From IMG/VR virus record IMGVR_UViG_3300031918_000082, positions 1-36,525 of that record: a DNA stretch of 36,525 nucleotides. One strand, written 5' to 3'. Below are positions 39 to 27,279 of the stretch, one piece after another. Each line of letters starts with the position of its first letter. Within the stretch, counting starts at the first letter, position 1. Made by a program: the position numbers and the translations under genes. The stretch comes from a virus. The notes under the pieces were generated by a model. That model was given only the letters and a program-made list of their open reading frames with translations, was not told the DNA's origin and searched no databases.

Positions 39-523
39 CGGGTTGTGCTCCTCTCGCATGGTTGCAGGAAGTTGGGGCGAGCGAACTCGCCGTGGTGCTC
101 TATGGCGTGAAGGTCGTAGGCGAGGGCGGCGTCCACTTCGTCAGCGAACTCTCCCAGATACCGCCTCTTCCCTGTGTTGATCTGAGCCACCCAGCGGCGC
201 CGGTCGCCACGCAGACAGACGCCCAGGTAGATGGACGACCCGTGCGGACGGCGGTTGTAGGCGTTCTCAGCGTATGTCGCCAGGCGAAGATTGCACCGCC
301 TGTTGTCGAGAAGGTCGTGGTTGATGTGATCGACCTGTTCGCTGGGACCAGGGAGCAGGATCTGCCGGTGCATGAGAACGACAGTCTGACGCCCACCGAC
401 GCGGGTGCCGCGCTTCGCGTACCCGCTGCTCGCGAGACACCAACTCCAGCCGGACAGCATCTCGTAGTCCTCATCGTCAACGAGCGCCACTGCGCCCCTT
501 GTGAGCTCTATCTCCCTGGTCAT
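35..523 (-). CDS. HNH homing endonuclease with C-terminal AP2 DNA-binding domain
   Basis: The 162-residue protein has an HNH core at about residues 50-92: H52-R53, then VDHINHD at 64-70, N74, and NLRLAT with following Asn residues to 90. This is the layout of phage homing nucleases, in which His and Asn bind a metal and cut DNA. Residues 97-152 match an AP2-like fold (YLGV, RRRWVAQI, YLGEF, ALAYD, Ala/His-rich helix) that gives DNA-site binding. HNH-AP2 genes are usually free-standing selfish genes in phages. The start at 523 is chosen because its ATG overlaps the upstream TGA (ATGA); a longer reading frame to 649 exists but overlaps the loader gene and its extra residues look like out-of-frame translation. 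The free-standing homing role is inferred. Confidence 0.88.
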   Translation of the reverse strand: MTREIELTRGAVALVDDEDYEMLSGWSWCLASSGYAKRGTRVGGRQTVVLMHRQILLPGPSEQVDHINHDLLDNRRCNLRLATYAENAYNRRPHGSSIYLGVCLRGDRRRWVAQINTGKRRYLGEFADEVDAALAYDLHAIEHHGEFARPNFLQPCERSTTR

Positions 524-2779: not shown

Positions 2780-3585
2780 GAACCCTCCTCTGTGTAAGTG
2801 GCGGCCAGGGCGGCCTCCAGTGTCGATGCCTGCTGCGCGGCGCGGTCCTGGCTCTCGTCCTGCCAGCCGGCCGGCACGCCTTCACGCCAGTCCTCCCAGC
2901 GTTCCTGGTGCAGGAACGTCGTGGGCATGGGGATGTACTTCTTCTCCTTCTGGCCGTAGCGGAACAGGTCGCCCATGACCTGGGCGACGCCGATCGCGAG
3001 CTCGTGGTTGGCCTTGCTGATGTTGCGCCAGGCGACCTCGGCCGTCTTCCTGCCCTCGTGCCGAGGGTAGAACGCCCAGAAGATCTCGAAGCTGCCGTCG
3101 TCCTTGCCGTTGCTCTTGACCACGTCGGTGCCGGCCTTGGCCGCCGGCTTCTTCTTCTCGGCCCGCTTCTCGGCGACGTCGTCCACCTCGTAGTGGCCGC
3201 GCGTCTTCTCCTCGCGGTTGCCGGGCACCCAGCGCACCCAGGGCGGGAGCGGGAGGTTGGGCGACTGCGGGTTGCGCGGGTGCTCGTGCTCGTGGAAGGC
3301 GCGGATGAACAGCAGCTGGTCGCCGTGGTCTGAGTACGGGACCAGCTTGCCGGCCTCACACATCTCGTCGCGCCACTGGTCGAGCATCTCGACCGTGATG
3401 TCGGCGTCGAACGGGCTCGTCCAGAGGAGACACTTCCAGGTGAAGGTGTCGTCCTCGACGCAGCCAGAATCCTCGGCCATCGCGTACAGGCCGGAATAGG
3501 TGAACCTCTTCTCGCGCGGCCAGCGCAGGAGCTCGCCGTCCGACCAGAAGTCTGCTTTGAGGATGCGGTTACGAAGTCGAGCCAC
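2776..3585 (-). CDS. Phage replication initiator-like protein (DnaD/replisome-organiser type)
   Basis: The 269-residue protein has two parts. Residues 1-110 resemble the N-terminal winged-helix domain of phage replication proteins (ILKADFWSDGEL, FTYSGLYAMAEDSG, then FIRAFHEHEHPRNPQSPN). Residues 110-165 are a Lys/Ala-rich linker. Residues 168-232 carry the DnaD-like C-terminal pattern FWAFYPRHEGRKTAEVAW and YIPMPTTFLHQERWEDW, common in phage replisome organisers. Such proteins bind the origin and recruit helicase loader and helicase. The GTG start at 3585 overlaps the upstream gene by 17 bases. A helicase-loader-like gene lies 1.8 kb downstream in the same operon, which fits. Confidence 0.72.
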   Translation of the reverse strand: MARLRNRILKADFWSDGELLRWPREKRFTYSGLYAMAEDSGCVEDDTFTWKCLLWTSPFDADITVEMLDQWRDEMCEAGKLVPYSDHGDQLLFIRAFHEHEHPRNPQSPNLPLPPWVRWVPGNREEKTRGHYEVDDVAEKRAEKKKPAAKAGTDVVKSNGKDDGSFEIFWAFYPRHEGRKTAEVAWRNISKANHELAIGVAQVMGDLFRYGQKEKKYIPMPTTFLHQERWEDWREGVPAGWQDESQDRAAQQASTLEAALAATYTEEGS

Positions 3586-4009
3586 TGCCCACCTCCACGC
3601 CCGCGAGATTCGGTAGGTCAGAGTCGAGGAAGGCGTCGTACACGCGCTTGATGCGGACGTAGATTTCCCAGCTGGTGCAGCGCCCGCCGATGCCGCCGTG
3701 GAACTTGGCGCGCACGCCGGCGGTGCGGTAGACCCACTGCATCGAGAGGCCGGCGTCGCGCATCTCGAGGAGCATGGAGCGCACGAAGCAGTTGGGCACG
3801 CGGTGGTCGGGGATAGGCTCGTCCGCCGGCACGCGCAGGATGGCGTCCGACGTGCTCTTGTGGATGGTGTCGAAGCGCCCGTCGAAGACGCTCCGCACGG
3901 TCGAGTGTGAGAGGCCGGCGCGGTCGGCGATGGCGTTCATCTCGAAGCCGATGCGACCGAGGTACTGAAGGTGGCGCTGGGCCGGATCCACCAAGACCTT
4001 GGTGCCCAT
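3569..4009 (-). CDS. Helix-turn-helix DNA-binding protein
   Basis: The 146-residue protein has an HTH at about residues 21-60: GFEMNAIADRAGLSHSTV, then a recognition-helix-like STVRSVFDGR. A second HTH-like stretch lies near residues 82-100 (MRDAGLSMQWVYRTAGV). Many actinophage early operons encode such proteins, whose targets are mostly unknown. The ATG at 4009 overlaps the upstream stop as TGATG and follows GGCGGAG; a GTG one codon earlier is an alternative. It could be a repressor, an activator or a replication accessory; the sequence does not decide. Confidence 0.68.
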   Translation of the reverse strand: MGTKVLVDPAQRHLQYLGRIGFEMNAIADRAGLSHSTVRSVFDGRFDTIHKSTSDAILRVPADEPIPDHRVPNCFVRSMLLEMRDAGLSMQWVYRTAGVRAKFHGGIGGRCTSWEIYVRIKRVYDAFLDSDLPNLAGVEVGSGSTS

Positions 4010-4209
4010 CACTCCGCCTCGGCGAGTATCACGTTGAGCTCAGGATGAGCGCCGCACCAGTCGGTGGCCTTGATGCGCGGCCAGCAGGCGACGATGGCGT
4101 CTCGACCCTGGAACGTGTTCGGAGGGTTGACCCGACAGAGCCCCTTCTGCTCTGCCGGGTCGAACTCCGCCCACTCGCAGGTAGTGCAGCGCGGGCGCTC
4201 AGTCGTCAT
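4009..4209 (-). CDS. Small cysteine protein (CxxC ... C ... WC type)
   Basis: The 66-residue protein has C8 and C11 (CTTCEWAEF), C25 (GLCRVNPP), C42 and C52 (DWCGAHPE). This spacing, with Pro-Pro after the third Cys and a WP before the fifth, recurs in many small phage proteins of unknown role. Zinc or iron-sulfur binding is likely but not shown. The gene overlaps the end of recT by 11 bases. Confidence 0.7.
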   Translation of the reverse strand: MTTERPRCTTCEWAEFDPAEQKGLCRVNPPNTFQGRDAIVACWPRIKATDWCGAHPELNVILAEAE

Positions 4210-5191
4210 CGCCCACCTCGTCCGGCCCGGCCATCAGGTGGCGCACGACCTCGAGGCCCTGCTCGCGCGTGAGCTCCTTCGCGTCGGCGACGCCGTAGCC
4301 CGAGAGCAGAAGCTCGTAGGCCTCCTTCGACCAGCCGTTGTTGCGGAACGCGGCGCCGATGGCGGCGAGCGTCTGGCGGGTGATCTTCTTCTCCTCGCCG
4401 TCCGGCTCGTCGGGGCCGACGTTGCCCTCGACCGTGACGCCACCGTCGAAGGTGTTCTCGTCGGCGATGACCTCGCCCTCGAGGACTTCACCTGTGACCT
4501 CGTCTACGGCCACAGGAGCCGATTCTGGGGCCTCCTGTGCGTGGAGAGAGGACTTGGTCGGGCGGAGGGCCTGCTTGGCTCTTTCGGCCGCGCTGGAGGC
4601 CGGCTCGATGACCATGTCGTTGCCGCCCTCGGCCAGGATGCGTTCCTTGTCGTCCTCGTCGTAGAGGTTGATGCCGAAGGACTCGCGCACGGCTTCCTTC
4701 ATCGCCTTGCCGCGGAGCATCTGGTAGGGCATCGCCTTCCAGGTCGGCGTCGAGCGGAACCACTCGACCAGGCGCACGCGGGACGTCTCAGGGTCGCGGC
4801 CGTCGCGGAAGGTGATGGTGCATTCGACCCACTCGGGGCACGGCTTCGAGCCCTCCATCTTCAGCATGTTCTCGGACTCGGTGTAGCTCTTGCCCTTGTA
4901 CGTCTTCTGCCGCAGCAGCACGCGGATCCACCCGTCCTTGAAGATCATCGGGTAGACGACGCCGTCCTTGGCGAAGCCGCCCATCTCCTTGAGGAACGGG
5001 TTGAGGTCGTAGCTGTTGGCGATGACGAGCAGGGAGATGAGCTCGTGGTCCTGCTTGACGCCCTTGAACGCGCCGGCCAGGAGCGTCTCGCGCACCTTGG
5101 ACGGCTCGACGTTGTACTTCTCGCCGAAGACCTGGAGCAGGCCCGGCTTCTTCTCTTCGGTGGTGGCTACTGCTGTGCTCTCGTCCGGCAT
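4199..5191 (-). CDS. recT: RecT-family single-strand annealing protein
   Basis: The 330-residue protein matches the RecT core over residues 15-180: SLLVIANSYDLNPFLKEMGG, YPMIFKDGWIRVLLR, PEWVECTITFRDGR, and PYQMLRGKAMKEAVRESFGI. RecT proteins coat single-stranded DNA and anneal it to complementary strands; they usually work with a 5'-3' exonuclease. Here that partner is the YqaJ-type gene encoded 0.5 kb upstream in the same operon (5720-6664). Residues 205-330 form a variable, acidic C-terminal extension with ITRQTLAAIGAAFRNNGW, probably a protein-interaction tail. The start ATG at 5191 has only weak upstream purines. Confidence 0.93.
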   Translation of the reverse strand: MPDESTAVATTEEKKPGLLQVFGEKYNVEPSKVRETLLAGAFKGVKQDHELISLLVIANSYDLNPFLKEMGGFAKDGVVYPMIFKDGWIRVLLRQKTYKGKSYTESENMLKMEGSKPCPEWVECTITFRDGRDPETSRVRLVEWFRSTPTWKAMPYQMLRGKAMKEAVRESFGINLYDEDDKERILAEGGNDMVIEPASSAAERAKQALRPTKSSLHAQEAPESAPVAVDEVTGEVLEGEVIADENTFDGGVTVEGNVGPDEPDGEEKKITRQTLAAIGAAFRNNGWSKEAYELLLSGYGVADAKELTREQGLEVVRHLMAGPDEVGDDD

Positions 5192-5196
5192 GGTCT

Positions 5197-5439
5197 TCAG
5201 CTTCCTTCCTCTAGTTGCCGCTGCTGCGGCAGTTCTCTGTGGCCTTCGATCTCCTCGGCCCTGAGCGGGATGACGACCATCGTGAGGTCGATCTCCATGC
5301 TCTTCGGCCCTACGACCTCGGGCCCGTCGATGTAGTCGTAGACCTGGCGCTCGATGTTCAGCTGCGCGCGCTTCACGATGAGGTGGCAGGGCTCGCCGGC
5401 GATGACGGCGTCGAACTCCAGACCAGCCTCGAACCTCAT
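5197..5439 (-). CDS. Small protein of unknown function in the recombination operon
   Basis: The protein has 80 residues with alternating hydrophobic strands (EFDAVIAGEPCHLIVKRAQL, EIDLTMVVIPLR) and an acidic, Gln-rich end, so a small beta fold is likely. The ATG at 5439 overlaps the upstream TGA (ATGA). It lies between the exonuclease and RecT. I do not recognise it. Confidence 0.62.
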   Translation of the reverse strand: MRFEAGLEFDAVIAGEPCHLIVKRAQLNIERQVYDYIDGPEVVGPKSMEIDLTMVVIPLRAEEIEGHRELPQQRQLEEGS

Positions 5440-5723
5440 ATCTCTTCGGGGTAGTGGGGCGCCCACGGCGGGGCGTCAGTGGGCTGTTCGACGCCGGCGA
5501 TGGCGTCGGTCGCGGCCTCGTAGGTGGTGATGGACAGGGTGTGGACGCGGCGGCCGGTGTAGCGGTAGGAGACGAACGAGTCGCCGGGTGCCCAGCCGCC
5601 CTGGTGGCCGGCGCGCTGCTCGCCGCTGAAGTCCACGATGTCCACGCCGTCCTTCTCGATGTACTCGATGAGCTCGAGCAGATGCTCGACCAGCTGCTCC
5701 CTCTTGGTCTTCTCGTCGGTCAC
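5436..5723 (-). CDS. Small acidic protein of unknown function
   Basis: The protein has 95 residues. Residues 1-25 form a helix (REQLVEHLLELIEYIEKDG), then come beta segments (DSFVSYRYTGRRVHTLSITTYE) and a Pro-rich end. GTG at 5723 overlaps the exonuclease stop as GTGA. Its place between a nuclease and an annealing protein suggests a recombination accessory, but there is no motif to prove it. Confidence 0.62.
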   Translation of the reverse strand: MTDEKTKREQLVEHLLELIEYIEKDGVDIVDFSGEQRAGHQGGWAPGDSFVSYRYTGRRVHTLSITTYEAATDAIAGVEQPTDAPPWAPHYPEEI

Positions 5724-6664
5724 GGCTTCACGTCTCCAATCGTCAGCGGGCGCTTGGTCCGCTTCTCGGTGTACTGCGCCATGAGCTTCTCCCAGCCGGC
5801 GGCGCGCATGCCCTTGGCATCGAAGAAGTCGTACTCCTGCGTCTTCCAGCGCACGACCTTGCTGCGGCTCTGCAGCGACTCGCGCTCCTCGAGCACGACC
5901 TTGAGCCGGTTGCCCGTCTCGTCGCGCTCCGTCTCGAGGGCCTTGATCTGCTTGCCCTGGGCCTGGTAGCTCATGGCGAGGCGCTCGATCTCGGGGTCAT
6001 CGATGACCTCGGTGTACTCGGGCGTCGAGTTGCCCCAGCGCGTCTTGATGGCGTTGGTGGTCGCCTCGCTGCCGTCCACGTCCGGCGGGATGCCGGGCTT
6101 CAGGTGGTTGAGGTAGAAGTCGCGTTCCTTGTCGGTGATGAGCGCGATGAGCTCGTCGTCGCGGGGCACGGCATGGTAGACGAACTGGTTCCCGACGATC
6201 GCCGCGGCATAGAACTTCTCCCAGCCCGTGCAGGCCAGCTGGTGCTGGATCTGCACCATGTAGTGGACCGGCACGTCGTCGGTCCAGTCGGGCAGCATCC
6301 AGGCGCTGGCGTTCTTCGCCTCGATGCCCACGGGCTGGCCGTCCTCGAGGCAGGCGGCGTCGATGAGCGCGCCCATCGGGAAGCCGTACTCCTCGGTCAC
6401 GAACCAGAAGTTCGGGTCCACCGTGCGGTGCGGGCGCCGGCACTTCAGGCCCGTCTCGCGGGCGAAGGCGCGGACGACGATGCCCTCGATCTGTGTGCCC
6501 AGCCACATCTGGAACGTCTGTTCCTTGGGCGGCAGCTGGCCGGTCATCTGCATGAAGAGCTCGTAGGGGCTGCTCCAGGGCGAGACGCCGGCGATGACGG
6601 GAGCCTTCGAGGCGGTGATGCCGTCGAACTCCTCGTGCAACTTCTGGACTGCGTTCTTAGGCAT
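5720..6664 (-). CDS. YqaJ-type viral recombinase / PD-(D/E)xK exonuclease
   Basis: The 314-residue protein has the YqaJ nuclease pattern: GTQIEGIVVRAF at 56-67 (Glu60), then D102 in LIDAACL, E115 and K117 in GIEAKNAS, and HYMVQIQHQL at 134-143. D102, E115 and K117 fit the catalytic PD-(D/E)xK triad, and Q138/Q140 fit the motif QxxxY-like end. Such enzymes chew the 5' strand of DNA ends and supply single strands to RecT. Residues 225-265 are a coiled coil (ALETERDETGNRLKVVLEER). The ATG at 6664 overlaps the upstream gene by eight bases. Confidence 0.88.
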   Translation of the reverse strand: MPKNAVQKLHEEFDGITASKAPVIAGVSPWSSPYELFMQMTGQLPPKEQTFQMWLGTQIEGIVVRAFARETGLKCRRPHRTVDPNFWFVTEEYGFPMGALIDAACLEDGQPVGIEAKNASAWMLPDWTDDVPVHYMVQIQHQLACTGWEKFYAAAIVGNQFVYHAVPRDDELIALITDKERDFYLNHLKPGIPPDVDGSEATTNAIKTRWGNSTPEYTEVIDDPEIERLAMSYQAQGKQIKALETERDETGNRLKVVLEERESLQSRSKVVRWKTQEYDFFDAKGMRAAGWEKLMAQYTEKRTKRPLTIGDVKP

Positions 6665-8386: not shown

Positions 8387-9145
8387 CTACTCTTCGACCA
8401 CGATGAACCAGCAGTTGCGCCAGGGGCGAACGTGATAGTCCACACCCTCGCGCCCCTGCGCGTCGGTCGCGTTGGCCTCGAGGGTCTTCTCACCCGAGAC
8501 GTGCAGGCCGGCGTGGTCAGGGTCAGCATGCCCGTTGAAGTCGATCAGCATGATGTCGCCGGCGTCGGGGTCCGTGGTCAGGTGGACGCCGTTGCTGCCG
8601 GCCTTGGCGCAGTAGAGCAGGTAGTCGGTGCCTTGGAAGCGGCCGGCGGACGGGCTGATGACCTTGGAGCCGGCGAAGTGGTACCAGTAGCTGTCCGCGC
8701 GCACGCAGTACGGGGCGCCGTCGTTGTGACCGCCGGTCCACCACTCGTTGTACTTGATGTGGTTGTTCGTCTGCTCGTGGAGGCCGAGGTCGTCGGTCGC
8801 CAGGGACAGTGCCTTCTTCGACAGCGGCACCTTCGCCGCGGCGGCCTTGGCGGCAGCCACGCGCCGGTTGCGCGCGGCGCGGTACGCCGGCGGGAGCGGC
8901 TTCTCGCGCTTGATGAGGTCGAGGAAGTTCTGACCGGCCACCTGATCCTTTAGGTGCGGGTCGATCGTGCCCTTGGCGTAGCCCATCCAATACTTGAGGC
9001 TGTGGATGGCGGACATCGTGCGCGCGCCGGCCTGCCCATCCACGGCAAGCCTCGCCTTGAGCGGGTGGAACGTGTTGGCGTTGATGGCGCGCTGCACCAC
9101 CTTGACCTTCTCGCCCTTGTCGCCGTAGTCCACGTAGAACGCCAT
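8387..9145 (-). CDS. Endolysin with N-terminal PG-binding-like region and CHAP domain
   Basis: The 252-residue protein starts with a peptidoglycan-binding-like motif (GDKGEKVKVVQRAI, then RLAVDGQAGARTMSAIHSL) at residues 8-52, followed by an Ala/Arg-rich linker. Residues 111-250 are a CHAP-type domain: C147 in GAPYCVRADSYWY, DPDAGDIMLIDF at 192-203, H211 in PDHAGLHV, and E223/N225 in TLEANAT. C147 and H211 fit the catalytic pair. CHAP enzymes cut peptide or amide bonds in the cell wall. The start ATG overlaps the upstream TGA (TGATG). Next in the operon is a holin-like gene. Confidence 0.88.
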   Translation of the reverse strand: MAFYVDYGDKGEKVKVVQRAINANTFHPLKARLAVDGQAGARTMSAIHSLKYWMGYAKGTIDPHLKDQVAGQNFLDLIKREKPLPPAYRAARNRRVAAAKAAAAKVPLSKKALSLATDDLGLHEQTNNHIKYNEWWTGGHNDGAPYCVRADSYWYHFAGSKVISPSAGRFQGTDYLLYCAKAGSNGVHLTTDPDAGDIMLIDFNGHADPDHAGLHVSGEKTLEANATDAQGREGVDYHVRPWRNCWFIVVEE

Positions 9146-9863: not shown

Positions 9864-11588
9864 TCAGGTTGGATGATGGCGGCGGTACTTGTGCGGCCCG
9901 TGCAGCTTCGATTTGTTCACGGCGCCGGCGTTCTGAAGTTGGTCGAGCAAGGCGGTGGCCGGCAGACCGACCTCGAACTGGGTGGTCTGTTCATCGATGT
10001 TGACGACGGAGCGCGTCACGACCAGCGGGCCAGTACCCGAGTCCTGCTCACACTCCACAAAGTCGCCGCCCTGGACGTAGGCGTAGGGCACCGGGTTGTT
10101 GTCTTTGTTCTTGAGCGTCCGCAGCCTCGAGTCGCAGATGCCGCTCGAAGTGCGCGCCAGGCCCAGCTTCGTGGCGAGCGTGCGCGCCATCCCGAGGGCT
10201 GTCTGGTCCTTGAAGTTGTGCTTGGTGAACGAGACGTTGATCACCGGCGCGGTAGCGCCTTCAAAGGGCTTTCCGCTGGCGAAGCCTGGGTTGGACGGCG
10301 CGATGACGGTGGCCGGCGTACCGCCGGGGAAGCCGCTCTTGCGCCCGATCCGGCCGTAGTTGAGGCGTACCGCGGCGACGACTCCGTACTCATCCTCTGG
10401 GTGCGGGCCGACCTCCCAGGTGACACCCGGCTCGGCCGACACCTTGTAGTAGTTGATGAGGCCGCGGATGGTCGTCGGGTCCGTCCGCATCGGCCGCGCG
10501 CGAAACTCGATACCGTTGCTCGCGTTCGGCCACCAGCCCCACTCCACGATCTCGTCGGAGAGCACGGCAAGTTGGTTGATGCCGGCGCCAGGGTCGGTCG
10601 CCGGGCGCACGAAGATCTCGGGCGAGACGGTGTTGACGGCCGAGGTCACGGTCGTTGTGTGCAGACCGATGAAGCTCGCGATGTCCACCATCGCCTGGTC
10701 GAGCCGGTGCGTCGCCATGTCGGGGTAGATGCGGAGGTTGTCGATCCGAATGAAGCGGTCGGCGGTCATCTTCTTCTTGTCGCCAGCGACGTCGGTGCAG
10801 TACATGCACAGGGCCAGGTACTTCTTGCCACCGGACGGCGAACTCCAGAAGGCGCTGGTGTCGAAGTGGACGCTATCCATGTGCATCTCGTTGCCGGCGT
10901 CGCCCCAGGTCTTGATGGTGCTGTAGTCACCGCCGGCCACCTCGCGCTGCGTGCTGTAGGCGTCGGCGACCACCAAGCGCGCACGCATGTTGTCGCCCAG
11001 GTTGGAGGAGACTTCGCCCTCGAGCCGGCGGATACCGTTCATCGTCGGCATCATGTGTTGGGCGCCGAGGTAGGCGACGTAGCCGACGAAGCCGCCGCGG
11101 TTGTTGGACGGCACCTCCTCGCCCTTGTCCACGGAGATCTCGAGGCAGTCGCTGGTGTCCACCGAGTAGACCTTGTTGTTGCGCTTGTTGACGATCCAGT
11201 TGTCGGTGCTCGTGTCGGAGAACCAGAACTGGCAGTCACCGCGCCACTTGGCGACCTCGAGGACGCCGCCGCACTCGACCTGGACGTAGGGCATCTTCTC
11301 GCCGGCCGGGCCACGGCGCGGGTCGTTGAGGATCCAGCCCTTGAACAGGTAGGTGGTGGCGGCGTCGTAGGTGTGCGAGACGCTGACGTAGGCGCCGCGG
11401 TAGAGCAGGCTCGGCGTGTTCCACGGCGACGACGCCTCCATCCAGAACGAGAACGAGGCGCTGCCGTTGAGGGACGACTCGAGGACGCGCCCGAAGGTCG
11501 TGGCCGCGCAGTCGGTCCCGCCGGTCCAGTTGGCCGCGCAGCCGATCTTGACGGAGAGGCCGCCATCCAGGAGTCCCGCGTAGGCCAC
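9864..11588 (-). CDS. Tail tip / hub-like minor tail protein
   Basis: The 574-residue protein opens with strands typical of tail-tip hub proteins (GLSVKIGCAANW, then SFSFWMEASSPW and GAYVSVSHTYDAATTYLFKGWI) at 8-90, where phage hubs carry a baseplate beta-barrel. The middle has VYSVDTSDCLEISVDKGEE and RFIRIDNLRIYPD; the C-terminal 150 residues include YYKVSAEPGVTWEVGPHPED and a short basic, His-rich end. Position after the fibre gene and before the lysis genes fits a tail-tip component. The GTG start at 11588 shares a G with the upstream TAG (TAGTG). The hub role is inferred from fold pattern and context. Confidence 0.6.
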   Translation of the reverse strand: MAYAGLLDGGLSVKIGCAANWTGGTDCAATTFGRVLESSLNGSASFSFWMEASSPWNTPSLLYRGAYVSVSHTYDAATTYLFKGWILNDPRRGPAGEKMPYVQVECGGVLEVAKWRGDCQFWFSDTSTDNWIVNKRNNKVYSVDTSDCLEISVDKGEEVPSNNRGGFVGYVAYLGAQHMMPTMNGIRRLEGEVSSNLGDNMRARLVVADAYSTQREVAGGDYSTIKTWGDAGNEMHMDSVHFDTSAFWSSPSGGKKYLALCMYCTDVAGDKKKMTADRFIRIDNLRIYPDMATHRLDQAMVDIASFIGLHTTTVTSAVNTVSPEIFVRPATDPGAGINQLAVLSDEIVEWGWWPNASNGIEFRARPMRTDPTTIRGLINYYKVSAEPGVTWEVGPHPEDEYGVVAAVRLNYGRIGRKSGFPGGTPATVIAPSNPGFASGKPFEGATAPVINVSFTKHNFKDQTALGMARTLATKLGLARTSSGICDSRLRTLKNKDNNPVPYAYVQGGDFVECEQDSGTGPLVVTRSVVNIDEQTTQFEVGLPATALLDQLQNAGAVNKSKLHGPHKYRRHHPT

Positions 11589-11758
11589 TACCCGACCTCA
11601 GAGATATTGTCGGCCTTCGATCCAGTCTCAGCAGCGATCGCATTACGAGTAGCTGCGTCTCGTAGCTCCTCGATCTCGCAGAGCGCGATCGCCAGTTCTC
11701 TCTGAGATCCTGCGAGCATCTCGCTCAGCTTGTTGATGACCTTTGTTGCGTCAGCCAT
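11588..11758 (-). CDS. 56-residue helical protein between fibre and hub genes
   Basis: This short gene encodes one amphipathic, probably coiled helix (KVINKLSEMLAGSQRELAIA, then LCEIEELRDAATRNAIAAE) followed by a polar tail ending ISEVG. The ATG at 11758 has GGAGG nine bases upstream and the frame ends in a TAG that overlaps the hub gene start. It could be a small tail chaperone or tip component; I see no family match. Confidence 0.68.
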   Translation of the reverse strand: MADATKVINKLSEMLAGSQRELAIALCEIEELRDAATRNAIAAETGSKADNISEVG

Positions 11759-11773
11759 TCGATGTCCTCCACA

Positions 11774-14700
11774 TCAGGTGAATGCTACATAGTGTGTTTC
11801 GTTGCCACCCTTGAGCGACACGTAAAGGCGGTCAGTTCCATTGTCGTAGTAGAGCTTCCAACGATAGGCAACAGTAGCCCTGTCCTGGATATAGACGCCG
11901 TCGTAGGACTGATACGTGCTGAAGTCAGCACTAGGGTTGAAGAAGACCGCCGTGCAGAAACAGCCGATTGCCACCGTGCCACCAGCCGAGTTGACACTGG
12001 CTGCCCAGAGAGTGCCGGTTACGCCGACATCCACGCTGATAGCCAAAGATCCGGTGATCTGGACATGGCTCGCAGAGTCTCCAACCTCTAGCGCCGCACT
12101 GTTGCCCGTCAGGTAAACATGCTTGTCCTGACCGCTGATCTGAATGTAGGCAGCGCTGTTATCGGTATGGTTGGCGAGCAGCGTGATCGTCTGCTGACTG
12201 TCCGACGATGTCTGGTCGATGTACGACGCAGCCGGGTCACCGTTGGTGGCGTTGTTGAACCGCGGCCCCTTCCAGCGGGTGATGAGTGAAGACCCTCCGT
12301 CAGCGACGTAGATGGCGCTGTTAGCAAGCTCGCTGGTGTTGCCCGTGTAGAGGTTGAGGTAACCAGCGGCACCACCGGACAGCGACACGCGAAGCCCGCT
12401 GCCAGCAGTCTGGATGGTCGCTCCAGTGATGAAGCTAGCGGAGTCGATTGTCGCGCCGTGGATGCTGCCGTCAGCGTCGATGTGCCAGACCGGGGTTGTC
12501 CCGCCGCCGCCTGTGTAGGGCCACTCCTCGAGGACTCCCGCCCTGACAGTGAGGCCCGTGATCATGTTGCCGGCGATGGCGTCGGCCGTGACGGTTCCCT
12601 CGACCAGGAGGTTGCCGGCCAACTTGCGGCGGCAGAGCATGTCATCGAAGTAGGCCGTGCGGGCCGATGCGTCGGAGCGACAGACGAGCTGCGCCTTCAT
12701 AAACACCGTGGTCGTCTGGGTGACTTGGGCGTCGATCGAGATCTCAGCCCATGTCGTCGTGTTGTTGTAGGCCGAGATATGGCAGTCCGTCGCCACCTCC
12801 GTCGTCCCGTCCGACTGGAGGGCCACGAGACGGACGGCGGCGCCGTACCCGGCGGCAACGGCCGCGCTGGCCTTCGCCCACGCGACGAAGTGGTACTCGA
12901 CAACCGCCTCTGGCGTCGCCGCCGCGCCAACCCTGACCGGCCACGGCCGCGTGACGTCCACGTAGGTCGTGGTGCTCGCCGTGCCGATGATCTGGCGCCC
13001 GTGCGCGCCGCGGTTGTATGTCGTGCAGGCTCCTCTGAACTCGATGGCGGCGTTAGCCTGGTCAACGGGGTAGGAGAGCCCGGCCGGCAGCGCGAGCTCG
13101 CTGTTGGCGTTCTGGATGAGGTTCTCGTAGTCAGCGATGACGAGGTTCTTGGCGTAGACGCTGTCCGCCGCCAACTCGTCCGCGGTGATCGCGCCGGTCG
13201 CGATCTGGCCGGCGGTGATGGAGTTGGCAACGACGTCGTTGGCACCGATGAGTTTCGACCAGGAGGATCCCAGCGACTTGTACAGGTTGCTGTCGTTCGT
13301 CCAGTAGAGGATCTTGCCGGTGGGGTAGTTGGTCGCATCAGGCAGCGTCGGCAGTGAGCCGCCGGTGTAGATGGCCGGCGGGACCAGGCCCGTCGCCAAC
13401 TTTGCCTGCGAGATGGCACCATCGGCAAGGTCGGTCGTCTGGTTCTGGAGCGAGGTCTGCTGCGTCGTCGCGCCCGAGTACGCGGAGGTGGTGCCATCAG
13501 GGTCGATACTCTTCACGCGGCAGTAGACGCCCGCCGCGCCGGCGGACAGCTTGTGGGTGTACATGGTGTCACCCACGGTGGCGACCAACGTCGTCGGCGT
13601 CGCGGTCCCATCGATATAGACCTCGTACCGCTCGCCGGGGATCGCCAGCGACGTCCAGCGGAAGATGATGGCCCCGATGGCCGGCGTGCCCGTCACGGTG
13701 ATGGTCTTGCTCGCCACCATGTTCACGTAGACGACGTTGGTCGGCTCGACGTAGCCGTCCTTGCCGACGCTCCAGAACTCGACCTTGTGGGAAGCGGCCG
13801 TGGTGGTCGCGGCGATGGTGAACGCCGACGAGTATTTCTGGTCGGCGCCGTTGTCGAGGCGGTACCAAGTCGCATCGACGGAGCCGGACGGCATGCCGCT
13901 GTAGGTCGGAGACAGCGTCACGGCAATCGTGCCGGCGGTGGTGATCCAGTTCTTGTACGGCGACTCCGCGACGGACCCAGAGGATAGTGAGACGGCCGTC
14001 TTGAGGTTCTTCACCGTGGTCGTTCCGTAGGTGAAGGTGCGGTTGTCGGCACTGGTGCCCCACTGGTTGACCACGTAGACGTTGACCGTCGTGCCGACGA
14101 AGGTGGCCTCGCCAGGGACGACCACGCGCATGCTGGTCGAGGAGTCGATGTAGAAGCCCGCGGAGAGGGTTCCCCACAGCACCTCAGTCGTCTCGAGGAA
14201 GTCGGTGCCGGTCAGGATCACGGTGTCACCGGGGAAGCCGCTGGCTGGAGATATCGAAGTCAGCGTCGCCACCGTGGAGCCGGGATAGACGAAGTCGTTG
14301 TTGGCGCTGTCCGCGCTCGTGCCGTAGGGGTTGCTGACGAAGACGTTGACGGTGCCGGCGCCAATCGGCGAGATCGCCACGATGGTCGTGTCGCTGGTGA
14401 TGCTGAAGACGGCGTCGGTGGTCCCGAACAAGACCTCGGTCGCGGTCATGAAGTCGGTGCCGGTGATGGTGACCGTATCGCCGCCGGCGCCGTCCGTGCG
14501 CGCACTCGTGTGCAGCGACATGGCGGTGACCGTGGGCGGGTTGCCGGTGCCGCCCTTGTAGGTGGCGTACGTCCACGCGGCCCCGGTCGAGTTGGTGCCG
14601 CCGGACGTCGTCACCTTGACGATGTGCGGGCCGCCGGTGCCGGCCGGAACGACGAACGAGATGTTGGTGTCGCTGATGAAAGTGTAGTTCAGGCCGACCT

Positions 14701-22238: not shown

Positions 22239-23396
22239 TTACGAGCCGGTGCCGTTCGAGGCTACGGTCGCCCGTGCGTCCACGACCACGCCGCCGTAGC
22301 AGTGACGCACCTTGTGCTCGATCTCGTCCGTCTCGAACGACTCGGCCACGGTGCCGCCGCCGACGCGAGAGGCGTTCGGGGTCTTGATGAAGAGCTCGGG
22401 GCTCTCATGGCCGCGGAGGCGGTCAAGCTGCAGAGCCGGGCGAGCCGCGCTGGTGCTCGCGAACATGAACCAGCTGGTGGCGGCGTTGGCGCTCGTCGCG
22501 ACCAGACCGATGTAGTCGTTGATCACGAGGTTGAGCTTGCCGGCCATCCAGTTCTTGGCGACGATCTGGTCCATGCCGTTGTACGCGCCGCCGCCGGTGC
22601 CCGTCTCGATCTGCAGAGCGTTGAGCAGGTTCTCTGCGGTGACCTGGAGGGCACGCGGGATGACCAGCGTGTAGGCATCGATCATCAGCGGGAAGCCGTC
22701 CACGTCGGTCTGGCCGGCGAACTGCAGGAAGCCTGCAGCCAGGCCAGCGACGCCGAGGACTGGGTTGCTGGTGATGATGTTCTTGTTGCCGGCGGCGTAG
22801 ACGCTGGCGTTCGGGCCGTTGGCGCCGACGAACAGCTTGGTGACGGCCAGGGCCTCGGAGCGGCGCGCGGCCACGACGAGCTTGTTCGGGAGATCCCGAA
22901 GCGCGTCGAGGTCGTCGTTCACGATGGACTCCCAGCTGAGTCCGAAGCGCGCGCCGTACTTGGCGACCTGGCGGTACTTCGGCGTCTCTTCACTCGGGCC
23001 ACGCTCGGGGTACTCAGCGCGCTCCCCGACCGGGTCCAGGATGGCGCCCATGCCTTCGATGCCGAGCGCCTTGGCCTGGCGGAAGTCCTTGAGGGTGCCG
23101 GTCTTGCAGTAGGAGCCCCACTCGGGCAGCGACGTGGACCACTGAGCCATGAGGCTGCGATCCAGGATGTCTGCCATGAGGTAGGGGAAGTCGGCCGTGG
23201 CCGAGGCCTCCTGCAGGATGTACGTCGCCCGGCGGTCGCCCGCGTAGGCCTCGTTCAGGATCTTGGTGAACTCGGCGAGAGAGCTCTCGGAGACTTTCGC
23301 CTTCGAGAACCCTTCGCGCTTCTCGCCGGCGAGCAGCGTCTGCGCCTGATCGGAAGCGACGCGAGCCTCCTCGACCAGCTTGATGATGTCTGCCAT
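22239..23396 (-). CDS. Major capsid protein (Mu gpT-like)
   Basis: The 385-residue protein has a gpT-like pattern: ILNEAYAGDRRATYILQEAS at about 46-65, PEWGSYCKTGTLKDFRQAKA, KYGARFGLSWESIVNDDLDA, then LFVGANGPNASVYA and MDQIVAKNWMAGKLNLVINDYI with ALQLDRLRGHESPELFIKT. Mu gpT-type proteins have the HK97 fold and build the icosahedral shell. It follows protease/scaffold and decoration genes, as expected. ATG at 23396 follows GGAGGAAC. No N-terminal delta domain is needed, since a separate scaffold is encoded upstream. Confidence 0.88.
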   Translation of the reverse strand: MADIIKLVEEARVASDQAQTLLAGEKREGFSKAKVSESSLAEFTKILNEAYAGDRRATYILQEASATADFPYLMADILDRSLMAQWSTSLPEWGSYCKTGTLKDFRQAKALGIEGMGAILDPVGERAEYPERGPSEETPKYRQVAKYGARFGLSWESIVNDDLDALRDLPNKLVVAARRSEALAVTKLFVGANGPNASVYAAGNKNIITSNPVLGVAGLAAGFLQFAGQTDVDGFPLMIDAYTLVIPRALQVTAENLLNALQIETGTGGGAYNGMDQIVAKNWMAGKLNLVINDYIGLVATSANAATSWFMFASTSAARPALQLDRLRGHESPELFIKTPNASRVGGGTVAESFETDEIEHKVRHCYGGVVVDARATVASNGTGS

Positions 23397-23415: not shown

Positions 23416-24666
23416 TCAGTAGCCGAGCTTGACCTGGATCTTGCGAGCGGCCGGGGCCACGGTCACGGTGCCGCCGATGCGCGCGGTGCCCGTGATGACG
23501 AGGTCGGCGTTGTCGCCCGCAAGGGTGATCGTGCCTGTGACGTTCGTGGCGGTGAGGCCGCGGATGCCGTAGACGGGATCGTTGATGCAGGCAGCGAGCT
23601 CGTCGCCGTCCGCCGTGTCCGACCCGCTGATGCTGAACTCGTGCTTGGACTTGGTGGTGACCGTCGCGTGGGCCGTGAACACGATGCCGTTGATGATCAC
23701 GGTCTGACCCGAGGTGACGCTCGCCATCGTGAACTTACGGTCCACGATGCCGCCGGCCTCGGTCACCTTGCCGAACTGAGCGGTGCCCGTCTCGGCCTTG
23801 CAGTTGAGCGTGGACGGCGAGGTCCAGTAGACCTTGTCGCCCTGGTCAATGTCGCGCACGCTGACAGCGGCGTGATCGACCGTGGCGGTGGCACCGGAAG
23901 CCGTGCCGGTCACTGCCGAGATGACCTCGGAAGAGGTAACCGTGACGACCGCAGCCGCGGCCTTGGCCCGGCAGAACGGCACCGGGGCGAGGACGGACAC
24001 GGTGGCGTGGGCCGCCAGGGTGACGTCGATGACCGGAGCCGGATAGGCGGCGGTCGGGTAGAGCGTCAGCGGCTGGATGAGAACTTCAGCAGCACCGCCG
24101 GCCGTGGCGATGTAGCCGAGCGGGACGATGCCGTAGGTGGCATCGTTCAGGACGGCTGCGAGCTCGGTCGCGTCCGCGGTGTCGGCACCGGCGATGGAGA
24201 ACTCGCGGTTGGCCGCCGTGGTGGTGCTGGTGTGAGCCGTGAAGGTCAGGCCCTTGACGACGATCTTCTCGCCGGCTGCGACGCCCGCGAGGGTGATGAT
24301 CTGGCCGCCGTTGATGGCCTTCGCCACCAGGAGCGCGTCGGCGGTGTCGTTGCCGGCGATGGAGACGGTGCGCGTGCTCCAGGTGTTGACCGTGGCGTGC
24401 GCCGTGACGGTGACGCCGTTGATGATGAGGGTCTGGGTCGAGGTCACGGTCGCGAGGGTCAGGGTGACCGCATCGCAGGCCGGATCGACGGTGACGTCCA
24501 CGACGCCCTTGGCGAGGCACGTAGCAATCTGCGTGCCGCTCGATCCCGTGGGCGTGAGGGTGACGACCGGGAGCTTACCGACGCACACTGGAGTACGTGC
24601 CGCCACGCTTGCGCCGACCGTCAGCGGAATCTTGATCCCGCGCTTGTACCACTCGTTCGTTGCCAT
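23416..24666 (-). CDS. Expanded DUF2190-type capsid decoration protein with three inserted repeats
   Basis: The 416-residue protein begins (1-57: KIPLTVGASVAARTPVCVG, SSGTQIATCLAKGVVDV) like its 121-residue neighbour and also shares that protein's later strand (DIDQGDKVYWTS near 272) and last strand (KIQVKLGY). Three related repeats are inserted: about 66-120 and 122-190 in one loop, 312-395 in another. Each has an IINGVxVTAH or VKGLTFTAH strand, then FSIAGxDTAD and a helix (ELAAVLND). DUF2190 proteins coat phage capsids. The repeats should project as spikes. ATG at 24666 follows GAGGTGACC. The decoration role is inferred from family and from its place next to the capsid gene. Confidence 0.75.
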   Translation of the reverse strand: MATNEWYKRGIKIPLTVGASVAARTPVCVGKLPVVTLTPTGSSGTQIATCLAKGVVDVTVDPACDAVTLTLATVTSTQTLIINGVTVTAHATVNTWSTRTVSIAGNDTADALLVAKAINGGQIITLAGVAAGEKIVVKGLTFTAHTSTTTAANREFSIAGADTADATELAAVLNDATYGIVPLGYIATAGGAAEVLIQPLTLYPTAAYPAPVIDVTLAAHATVSVLAPVPFCRAKAAAAVVTVTSSEVISAVTGTASGATATVDHAAVSVRDIDQGDKVYWTSPSTLNCKAETGTAQFGKVTEAGGIVDRKFTMASVTSGQTVIINGIVFTAHATVTTKSKHEFSISGSDTADGDELAACINDPVYGIRGLTATNVTGTITLAGDNADLVITGTARIGGTVTVAPAARKIQVKLGY

Positions 24667-24681
24667 CTCAGGTCACCTCGC

Positions 24682-25047
24682 TCAGACGCCGAGCAGGACG
24701 GGGATGGTGGTCGTGGCGCCCGAGTTGACGGCCGCGAGGGCGTACCCGAAGCGCACGGCGGACGCGCCGTCGCTGTACTTCGAGAGCTTCGGCGTCTGGC
24801 CGGGCACGTAGTAGAGGATGTCGCCCTGGGCGATGGCGCCGTTGCCGCCGCCGGTCGTGATGCCCTTGCAGGACAGGTTGAAGACGCCCTCGGTCGCCAC
24901 GGTGGCGATCTGGGTGCCCGAGGACAGGGTGGCCGTGAGGGCCACGCCGACCAGCTGACCCACAGCGACCGGGCTGCGCGCAGCGACGCTGGCGCCCACG
25001 GTCAGCGGGATCTGACGTGCTTCCTTGTAGACTTCATTCGTTGGCAT
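24682..25047 (-). CDS. DUF2190-type capsid cement / decoration protein
   Basis: The 121-residue protein fits the compact DUF2190 fold: QIPLTVGASVAARSPVAVGQ, SSGTQIATVATEGVFNL, AIAQGDILYYVPGQTPKLS, FGYALAAVNSGATTTIPVLL. These beta-tulip-like trimers stabilise capsids. It is a paralogue of the 416-residue protein encoded next. ATG at 25047 follows AGGAGGCAAC. Position between scaffold and capsid genes is standard. Confidence 0.8.
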   Translation of the reverse strand: MPTNEVYKEARQIPLTVGASVAARSPVAVGQLVGVALTATLSSGTQIATVATEGVFNLSCKGITTGGGNGAIAQGDILYYVPGQTPKLSKYSDGASAVRFGYALAAVNSGATTTIPVLLGV

Positions 25048-25055
25048 GTTGCCTC

Positions 25056-25505
25056 CTAGCGACCGTTGGCGGCGCGCTTGGCGGCGTCGTCGGAGAGGTT
25101 GAAGAACGAGCCGATGCCGCTGGCGAGGCTCTCCTTGACTTCCGCGTCGCCCGACTCGCTGCTGGCGGCGCCCTGATCGGTGACCTTGCCGGTCACGCCG
25201 AGCGACTCGAGGTAGTCGGCTTCGAGCTTCGCCTCGGCCTCGACGGCCTCGGTGAGCTTCTCGACGTCGAGCTTGCCTTCCTTCATCGGCGGATCGGCAC
25301 TTACCTTGGTGACCACGCGCGTCTTGGCCGCGGCGGGCAGGCTGATGTTCTCCATCGCCTTGCGGGCCTGGCCCTGAGCTTCGAGGATGGCGAGGGCGCC
25401 CTCGGCGCGGTCAGCGCGCGCGGACTCCTCGAGGTTCTTGTCGTTGGCTTCCTTCAGGTCCGACTCGAGAGCGGTGATCTGCTCCTGTGCTTCCTTCAGA
25501 TCCAT
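25056..25505 (-). CDS. Nested scaffold protein, in-frame internal start
   Basis: Met309 of the protease gene is preceded by AGGAGG with an eight-base spacer, a far better ribosome site than expected inside a gene. From there 149 residues are translated in the same frame: a coiled coil (MDLKEAQEQITALESDLKEA, then RADRAEGALAILEA) and an acidic, alpha-helical end with IGSFFNLSDDAAKRAANGR. Nested protease/scaffold pairs are known in Mu (I/Z) and lambda (C/Nu3). The C-terminal basic tip may bind capsid protein. The signal is seen; expression is inferred. Confidence 0.8.
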   Translation of the reverse strand: MDLKEAQEQITALESDLKEANDKNLEESARADRAEGALAILEAQGQARKAMENISLPAAAKTRVVTKVSADPPMKEGKLDVEKLTEAVEAEAKLEADYLESLGVTGKVTDQGAASSESGDAEVKESLASGIGSFFNLSDDAAKRAANGR

Positions 25506-26429
25506 ACCTTCTGCCTCCTGGTGGAGAGTGTCGTCGTGGGACTCCTGCTGCTCGGATGAAACCACAGCGGGCTCCTCGGTCTGGCGCAGGCTCTCCATGA
25601 TGGCGATGACCTGTCCGCCGGCGCCGGCCTTGGTGACGAAATCGATGCTGTTGCGAGGACTGGGATTGATCTTGGTGATGACGCGACCCTTGCGGCCGTC
25701 CGCCTCCCCTTCCTTGAAGGCACCAGCGGCGCGGATCGAGACGCCGATGTGCGGCGCCAACGCCCTGATGGCCTCCTTGTACTGGGGCATGACGGTGGCC
25801 TTGGCGTAGAGCCCAGGGCCCTTGATGCCGTTCTCCTGATACACCGGGTCGGAGATCGTGACCGCCGCGAGATCCTTGATGCTGCGCTCGGGCCGGTCCT
25901 TCGCCTCCTGGGCGGTGGGATGGTCGAGGTACATGTGAGTCCCGGCCTGCCAGGCGGTCGGGCCGTCTTCCTTGAGCACGTCGGCCGGATAGAACCCCGA
26001 GGAGCCCCAGCCTGGCTTGATGATCTTCAGGTCGATGGTCGCCGGCGCGTTGGCCGCCTCGTGGAGCTCGAGCTCGTAGTCGGCGTCCTCGGTGAACGAC
26101 TCCTGGGCGCCGCCGCCGACTGGGACGTAGGTGGTCTTGCGCTTGACCTCGACGGCCTCGCCGAGGTTCGCCTTGACGACGCCCGAGCGGTCGAGCGTGT
26201 AGGCGGCCTGGAAGTAGCACGCCGGGGCGCTGTCAACGCCGCGCGGGCTGACCTCGTAGATGACCTTGTCGTCATAGAGCTCGGCGACCCAGGTCCACGA
26301 GTTGGGCTTCGGGTGCCGGTCGTAGAGAGCGGTGCGGACGATCTCGGTGAGCTCACTCACAGAGAGGCCGGCCACCTCGGTCAACTGGACGACCGCCGGC
26401 GGCATGCCGTCCTTCTCATGGGTTTGCAT
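25056..26429 (-). CDS. Prohead protease with C-terminal scaffold region (Mu gpI-like)
   Basis: The 457-residue protein has a protease domain over about 130-285: IDLKIIKPGWGSSGFYPADV, H170 in THMYLDHPTAQE, RPERSIKDLAAVTI at 179-192, and S231 in HIGVSIRAAGAF. H170 and S231 fit the catalytic pair of the phage prohead protease families. Residues 309-457 are the scaffold region, which the protease would digest during maturation. The first 130 residues (VAELYDDKVIYEVSPRGV, FQAAYTLDRSGVVKANLGEA) look like a separate beta domain. ATG at 26429 follows AAGGAGACACGA and lies 14 bases inside the MuF gene; a frame to 26570 adds out-of-frame sequence. Confidence 0.83.
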   Translation of the reverse strand: MQTHEKDGMPPAVVQLTEVAGLSVSELTEIVRTALYDRHPKPNSWTWVAELYDDKVIYEVSPRGVDSAPACYFQAAYTLDRSGVVKANLGEAVEVKRKTTYVPVGGGAQESFTEDADYELELHEAANAPATIDLKIIKPGWGSSGFYPADVLKEDGPTAWQAGTHMYLDHPTAQEAKDRPERSIKDLAAVTISDPVYQENGIKGPGLYAKATVMPQYKEAIRALAPHIGVSIRAAGAFKEGEADGRKGRVITKINPSPRNSIDFVTKAGAGGQVIAIMESLRQTEEPAVVSSEQQESHDDTLHQEAEGMDLKEAQEQITALESDLKEANDKNLEESARADRAEGALAILEAQGQARKAMENISLPAAAKTRVVTKVSADPPMKEGKLDVEKLTEAVEAEAKLEADYLESLGVTGKVTDQGAASSESGDAEVKESLASGIGSFFNLSDDAAKRAANGR

Positions 26430-27279
26430 TCGTGTCTCCTTGGTTGAACCCAGGCGGGTAGGGGATGAGGCCACCGACCGCGGTTCCCCACGGCTGCGGC
26501 TGGCCGGCCGCCGGGTAGGTGATGATGGAGCAGCCGCAGTTCGGATGCTGCGGCGTTGCCATGTCTCCACTCGGGAACGGTTGCTGGAGCGGGATGGCGC
26601 CCGCCTGGTTGTTGTCGTCGCAAAGGTCCATGCGCTCGTGCAGCGGGCCGAGCAGCCACTCCTTGACCATCATGAAGCCGGCCTGCTCCATGAGCCCAGC
26701 CGTCTCAAGCTCGGCGAAGCTCCACGCCTTGCTCGCCTCGGTCCTGGCGATCTTGAGCGCCCGCGCTGCGCTCATCTCATCGAAGGAAGCCATGATGCGG
26801 TTCGCGATGACGTCGAACGAGTCGCCGCTGGCGAAGGCGTCGGCCAGCAGCGCGCTCATGCGCTCCCTGGTGTAGGCGTTCAGGCCGGTGACCAGTTCGC
26901 CCCCGTGCTCCAAGAGGTAGGTCTGGGCCTGGATGGAGCGGATGTCGCCGGTGATGCCGTACTTGGTCAGGCCCGAGTTGATGACCGCGGCCTCGAGCGC
27001 AGCGAGCAGACCAGGGCGGAGGGTGAGCACGTCGCGAGTGACGCGCGCAGCCAGCGCGGCGGCGATCGCGGCGAGGATGATCTCGATGTTGCGCTTGTCC
27101 TTGCGCGACAGCGCCTCGGTCATATCCGCGGTGAACAGGGCCATCAGGATGTCGTAGCCCTGCATCGCGAAGAGCGCGCTGGCGTCGCCCTCGATCTGCC
27201 GCTCGGCGCCGAGGAGACTCATCACCCGGTGCGCGTACAGCGTCTTCTGCAGCGCCTTCGTGAGCGTCTCCTCGAGCAT
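26416..27279 (-). CDS. Minor head protein, MuF / SPP1 gp7 family
   Basis: The 287-residue protein is helical at first, then has the family pattern: RALKIARTEASKAWSFAELE at 173-192, VKEWLLGPLHERMDLCDDN at 205-223, and PQHPNCGCSI at 243-252, with Cys and His placed as in MuF domains. These proteins sit inside the head near the portal and are injected or help assembly. ATG at 27279 overlaps the upstream stop (TGATG). The partner portal gene is 6.4 kb away, separated by the six-gene island, which is unusual. Confidence 0.88.
   Translation of the reverse strand: MLEETLTKALQKTLYAHRVMSLLGAERQIEGDASALFAMQGYDILMALFTADMTEALSRKDKRNIEIILAAIAAALAARVTRDVLTLRPGLLAALEAAVINSGLTKYGITGDIRSIQAQTYLLEHGGELVTGLNAYTRERMSALLADAFASGDSFDVIANRIMASFDEMSAARALKIARTEASKAWSFAELETAGLMEQAGFMMVKEWLLGPLHERMDLCDDNNQAGAIPLQQPFPSGDMATPQHPNCGCSIITYPAAGQPQPWGTAVGGLIPYPPGFNQGDTNANP

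Follow-up and report, generated by a model that had tools for sequence, protein, structure and literature searches.

Two open reading frames of very unequal length lie between a capsid protease gene and the major capsid protein gene of the virus analysed here, and the question they raise is whether both derive from one capsid decoration gene and, if so, what the longer one adds to the virion. The original prediction held that such a gene had been duplicated and that one copy had acquired three inserted repeats, placing short and long studs on one capsid. The sequence analysed, referred to as the window, is an IMG/VR virus record of 36,525 bases with 66% G+C. Both reading frames (121 and 416 aa) are present at the coordinates given there, on the minus strand, in the order Mu-F-like head protein, protease/scaffold, short copy, long copy, major capsid protein. 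The four adjoining genes are:

25056..26570, minus strand: gene for the capsid maturation protease/scaffold, immediately upstream (match to phrog_15531, head maturation protease, E 2e-37)
24682..25047, minus strand: short copy, 121-aa Phage_cement_2 (DUF2190) capsid decoration protein (PF09956, phrog_122, structural model)
23416..24666, minus strand: long copy, 416-aa paralogue, as judged by BLASTP to the short copy (E 4e-19), with three inserted modules
22239..23396, minus strand: major capsid protein gene, directly downstream (PF25209 Phage_capsid_4, E 1e-36)

The short and long genes are separated by 15 bases, and the long and capsid genes by 19. A purine-rich ribosome-binding stretch precedes the start of both the short and the long frame; the short RNA structures checked where these genes meet are unremarkable.

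A short and a long DUF2190 protein

The short protein is a DUF2190 member by profile and has the fold of a decoration protein. Its residues 13–117 align to positions 7–101 of the 103 of the PF09956 model (Phage_cement_2, DUF2190; E 9e-11, 42.5 bits against a curated Pfam cut-off of 24), and it matches phrog_122 (PHROG 122, head decoration). Its structural model (pLDDT 82) has capsid decoration proteins as top fold matches, namely phiCD508 gp48 (Foldseek E 1e-4, Z 10.9 over 109 residues) and HFTV1 8qsy (Z 9.1), followed by Pam3, Pa193, E217, XM1, phi29 gp8.5 and lambda gpD. The trimeric stud assumed for DUF2190 in the original prediction agrees with these best solved matches: phiCD508 gp48 forms a trimer on the capsid (PMC11948020) and E217 gp24 a capsid trimer (PMC10329688), and HFTV1 gp18 trimers attach to the exterior of the shell (PMC12494034). 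A sequence search of solved structures returned nothing meaningful for either the short or the long protein, and a search of 50,697 records of phage isolates returned only distant matches to the short protein and none to the long one.

By sequence, the long protein carries the same core in three segments. Residues 1–68 are 57% identical to the short protein (BLASTP E 4e-19), and residues 1–63, 266–308 and 402–416, once joined, aligned to the whole of a profile built from short proteins alone (94.8 bits, E 2e-28), with a profile-profile probability of 99.9%. The segments are located as follows:

24478..24666, minus strand: core segment 1, residues 1–63 (short-profile match 5e-20)
23743..23871, minus strand: core segment 2, residues 266–308 (12.6 bits against the short profile when taken alone, reached by 0 of 2000 shuffles)
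23416..23466, minus strand: core segment 3, the last strand, residues 401–416, and the stop codon (joined-core comparison)

These comparisons establish the duplication of the decoration gene and bear out the prediction that the start, middle and end of the short protein are kept in the long one, which, as judged from sequence, is a disrupted DUF2190 paralogue of its neighbour. A whole-protein Pfam scan of the long protein gave no PF09956 match because of the ~290 inserted residues, which, together with its position as the second of two adjacent copies, set it apart from the Phage_cement_2/DUF2190 family to which the short protein belongs. In the AlphaFold model of the long protein the repeats reach pLDDT values of mostly 65–93 and the DUF2190 core only about 25–40, so the claim of a single core draws on the sequence comparisons; a Foldseek search with this model gave no PDB match below E 0.001. 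In the model of the short protein, the two insertion points fall in the loops after strands 54–61 and 98–103, in agreement with the predicted entry of the repeats through two loops. If strand direction reverses from each strand to the next, one end of the barrel would hold both loops.

Modules within the inserts and in other virion proteins

Insert 1 comprises two modules (A and B) and insert 2 a single one (C), distributed as follows:

24307..24477, minus strand: module A, first part, residues 64–120 (50 bits at 66–119 with a profile that leaves out the window's unit A)
23977..24306, minus strand: module B, residues 121–230, apparently inside module A (unit profile, 81 bits at 124–190)
23872..23976, minus strand: module A, putative second part, residues 231–265 (9.7 bits, reached by 5 of 2000 shuffles)
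23467..23742, minus strand: module C, residues 309–400, in the second loop (unit profile, 137.6 bits at 308–400)

The unit profile left out the long forms' units A and B as well as the hand-joined A but included the window's unit C, which bears on the score of the latter. The units are mutually related, with profile-profile probabilities of 98.4–99.8%, values that carry some circularity for unit A since it was joined by hand beforehand. The repeats of the original prediction are thus real, with matches at 66–119, 124–190 and 308–400; two details required revision. The FTAH motif described as common to the repeats reads VTAH in the first unit, and insert 1 spans about 64–265 rather than 66–190, because module B interrupts module A, whose second half would correspond to about 231–265.

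The proposed nesting of B in A is deduced from three kinds of evidence. Firstly, matches to a split A flank B: beyond the first half, a weak match to the unit end lies at 234–259 (9.7 bits when this segment is scored alone, 5.4 bits within the whole protein). Secondly, the relatives L022 and L019 (317 and 318 aa) possess A and C and lack B; one uninterrupted unit occupies residues 65–158 in their first loop, its ends aligning with residues 64–120 and about 231–265 of the window's long protein, and a stretch the size of 121–230 is missing. Thirdly, model residues 121–229 alone superpose on a cyanophage tail sheath domain (Z 10.2, 2.5 Å over 91 residues), and the Bxb1 capsid chain 9d9x_Ha matches the model across 64..265 (Z 4.5, 76 residues). 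If B is nested in A, it arrived after A; L019 and L022 may never have had B or may have lost it. Insert 1 might instead be a plain tandem, in which A lacks its second half and B, interrupted by a spacer, ends at about 265. Joining the halves of A by hand does not raise the score above that of the first half, the second half contributes about 5–10 bits by itself, and the first half of A and B each score about as well with 231–268 joined on as without it, as a plain tandem would allow. We nevertheless regard the tandem as unlikely, given that residues 121–229 match whole domains by themselves, that both ends of A align to the uninterrupted L019/L022 unit at the same position in the core, and that one fold match covers 64..265.

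The structural model builds the modules from beta strands and one helix, and their fold matches are domains of sheath, nozzle and flagellin proteins; for module B these are the tail sheath (Z 10.2), a T7-type nozzle (Z 8.8) and FliD/flagellin (Z 4–7). Module B thus resembles tail sheath, T7-type nozzle and flagellin/FliD D2-D3 domains in fold, at middling Z scores that prove neither descent nor function. A flagellin-type domain was considered on the strength of these matches; the likeness to flagellin and FliD is kept as a fold resemblance because no sequence match accompanies it. Neither Pfam nor PHROGs has a name for the module, with no Pfam match up to E 10 and none to Pfam Ig families, and the 50,697 phage records contain no match to it.

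Scanning with the unit revealed the module in a head-tail adaptor (L058, residues 35–115), in a tail tube protein (L061, 310–395) and in a T7-type nozzle protein (L075, 672–762), where nozzle sequence flanks it on both sides. Proteins of phrog_28483 also carry the module, and cutting the unit out lifts their family score from 28.3 to 41.6 bits; an Actinomycetes MAG contig likewise has it outside a DUF2190 protein. The module is therefore promiscuous and not specific to DUF2190. Neither this spread nor the nesting of B in A formed part of the original prediction. We are evenly divided on a broader reading, according to which the module would be a movable cassette of the tailed-phage surface that has so far gone undescribed, comparable to the Ig-like domains of phages. 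It would insert in loops of unrelated virion proteins, among them cement, adaptor, nozzle and tail tube proteins, and in its own copy, and would be exchanged while its carrier stays constant, here making a duplicated cement protein a second, variable stud.

Further occurrences were noted. In L058, the module is present in two virion proteins of one phage, a phrog_28483 protein and the head-tail adaptor (4722-5465 and 5758-6621). L079 has two adjacent similar genes (3563-4282, of the phrog_28483 type, and 4331-4999), each with the module, a second tandem virion pair with an insert. In L121 (Rhodobacter phage RcTitan), the unannotated gp13 and gp17 (8559-9128 and 10535-12748) have a similar predicted fold in BFVD; both were rejected as carriers by sequence, as the module profile finds neither. 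Patience gp22 was likewise rejected, the profile giving no match.

Distribution and divergence of the pair

Nine further IMG/VR contigs contain a short-long pair (L003, L004, L005, L008, L015, L019, L020, L021 and L022), two of which, L020 and L021, show no difference over 8.7 kb; L006 holds a partial short-long locus. The order protease, short, long, major capsid protein is found in ten loci, window included, and a single short DUF2190 gene adjoins the capsid gene in 45 related loci. In a tree built on the N-terminal stretch, the shortness of which limits resolution, the long copies cluster apart from the short ones with a support of 0.93–0.95. Since the long copies group together, a single duplication before the phage group diverged is likely.

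The same data bear on whether short and long proteins co-assemble as mixed trimers, so that each stud would carry from zero to three tall arms. Within each genome the two copies share 53–65% identity in their first 62 residues and their genes are always adjacent, both of which would favour co-assembly; against it, shorts and longs remain separate lineages, and insert 2, located before the last strand, could disturb a shared interface. On balance, mixed trimers appear improbable, and separate short and tall studs are preferred.

The capsid protein of L029 is sister to that of the window (79% identity, support 1.0), and L029 has one short copy only; hence these phages can do without a long copy or L029 has lost it, and the role of the tall copy may be minor. 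The short stud of L029 (5001-5348) groups weakly with the longs rather than the shorts and may be a long copy minus its inserts. Other arrangements of the family were also observed: an independent tandem DUF2190 pair with no inserts (L102, 2517-3184; 115 and 107 aa), DUF2190 proteins enlarged by C-terminal extensions (L032, 5001-5753; L033, 4207-5157; L041, 5001-6023), and a 429-aa frame whose C-terminal end is a DUF2190 domain (L114, 4068-5357).

Since carriers of the module include a nozzle protein, a tail tube protein and a head-tail adaptor, the long protein might have a different location and reuse its DUF2190 base at the neck, the portal vertex or the tail. We consider this very unlikely, as the base is a capsid decoration domain and, in 10/10 loci, the long gene has the short stud gene on one side and the capsid gene on the other. 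Decay of the long copy, or its persistence as a neutral leftover of the duplication, would suit its pN of about half pS (pN/pS about 0.5, rather relaxed) and the fact that L029 manages without it, but is hardly credible for a frame that stays open at 409–416 aa across seven distinct phages, the six besides the window being 66–75% identical to it, and that is preceded by a ribosome-binding stretch.

Local change within the long gene was observed in one pair of relatives. L019 and L022 share 97–100% identity from about 1.3 kb upstream of the long gene into its first part, and identity drops at unit A. Their cores differ at 1/63, 1/39 and 1/15 residues (3/117 in total), compared with 26/102 in unit A (Fisher p 4e-7) and 11/98 in unit C (p 0.012), in a single pair picked after inspection. 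Change is thus concentrated in the modules in this pair, a pattern that fits exposed, exchangeable modules; the more distant pair L003/L005 shows no contrast between core and modules. The sharp divergence between L019 (1948-2247) and L022, limited to module A and to a lesser degree C, resembles a cassette replacement.

A proposed tall stud and its relation to known decoration proteins

We consider it probable that the second copy of a duplicated cement gene, given modules in two loops and a nested one, constitutes a tall, exposed and variable stud beside a short cementing stud. According to this proposal, a beta-tulip-type (DUF2190/Phage_cement_2) gene beside the major capsid gene would have been duplicated before the group diverged. 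The first copy would have stayed a short stud, presumably at threefold and quasi-threefold sites, stiffening the shell. The second would have gained a movable virion-surface module of 90–110 residues, of beta/alpha type, in two loops, and another module copy would later have entered the first inserted one. The long protein would be present in the virion and form trimers with the same capsid-binding base, their modules raised above the surface and pointing outward, so that the head probably carries both short and tall studs. Exposed in this manner, the modules could be swapped or diversified; by analogy with the Ig-like domains of Hoc-type proteins, they may play an adhesive role, most likely contacting the host surface or environmental ligands.

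Several elements of this arrangement have precedents. The short protein resembles phiCD508 gp48 (9gay, Z 10.9) and E217 gp24 (8frs, Z 6.9) in fold and in a gene adjoining that of the capsid protein; the available portions of the reports on those phages describe one such stud type and no modules of the window's kind. A beta-tulip base with a tall projection is known from the phi29 gp8.5 head fibre (PMC7602432), whose capsid-binding base belongs to that fold class (Z about 6) and bears an elongated projection; this projection is a C-terminal helical supercoil (PMC7602432), whereas the long protein of the window has modules in loops. T4 (Hoc/Soc) and Sf14 each combine two decoration proteins on a single capsid (PMC7602432, PMC11821841), and Hoc proteins carry Ig-like modules (PMC7602432, PMC11821841). 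T4 Hoc and Sf14 gp20 thus provide, as proposed for the window, a second, taller decoration with strings of modules besides a small one, but their Ig-like strings sit on an unrelated capsid-binding domain (PMC11821841), whereas the two putative stud proteins of the window are paralogues. The Patience minor capsid protein gp22 (8giu) is encoded directly before the capsid gene, as in the window; its residues 104–187 give a weak fold match to model residues 121–228 (Z 4.4), on a different base and with no sequence similarity. In the literature searched, coverage of which was incomplete, we came across no report of a short cement protein with a tall paralogue, nor of any module inserted into another copy of itself.

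The loci form a natural series, from a single short protein through a short pair (L102) to a long protein with two modules and one with three, one of them apparently nested, which shows how a capsid stud can turn into an elongated display platform. They also point to an unnamed surface module common to several virion proteins. The cement fold seems to tolerate large inserts in two loops, which suggests its usefulness for protein display.
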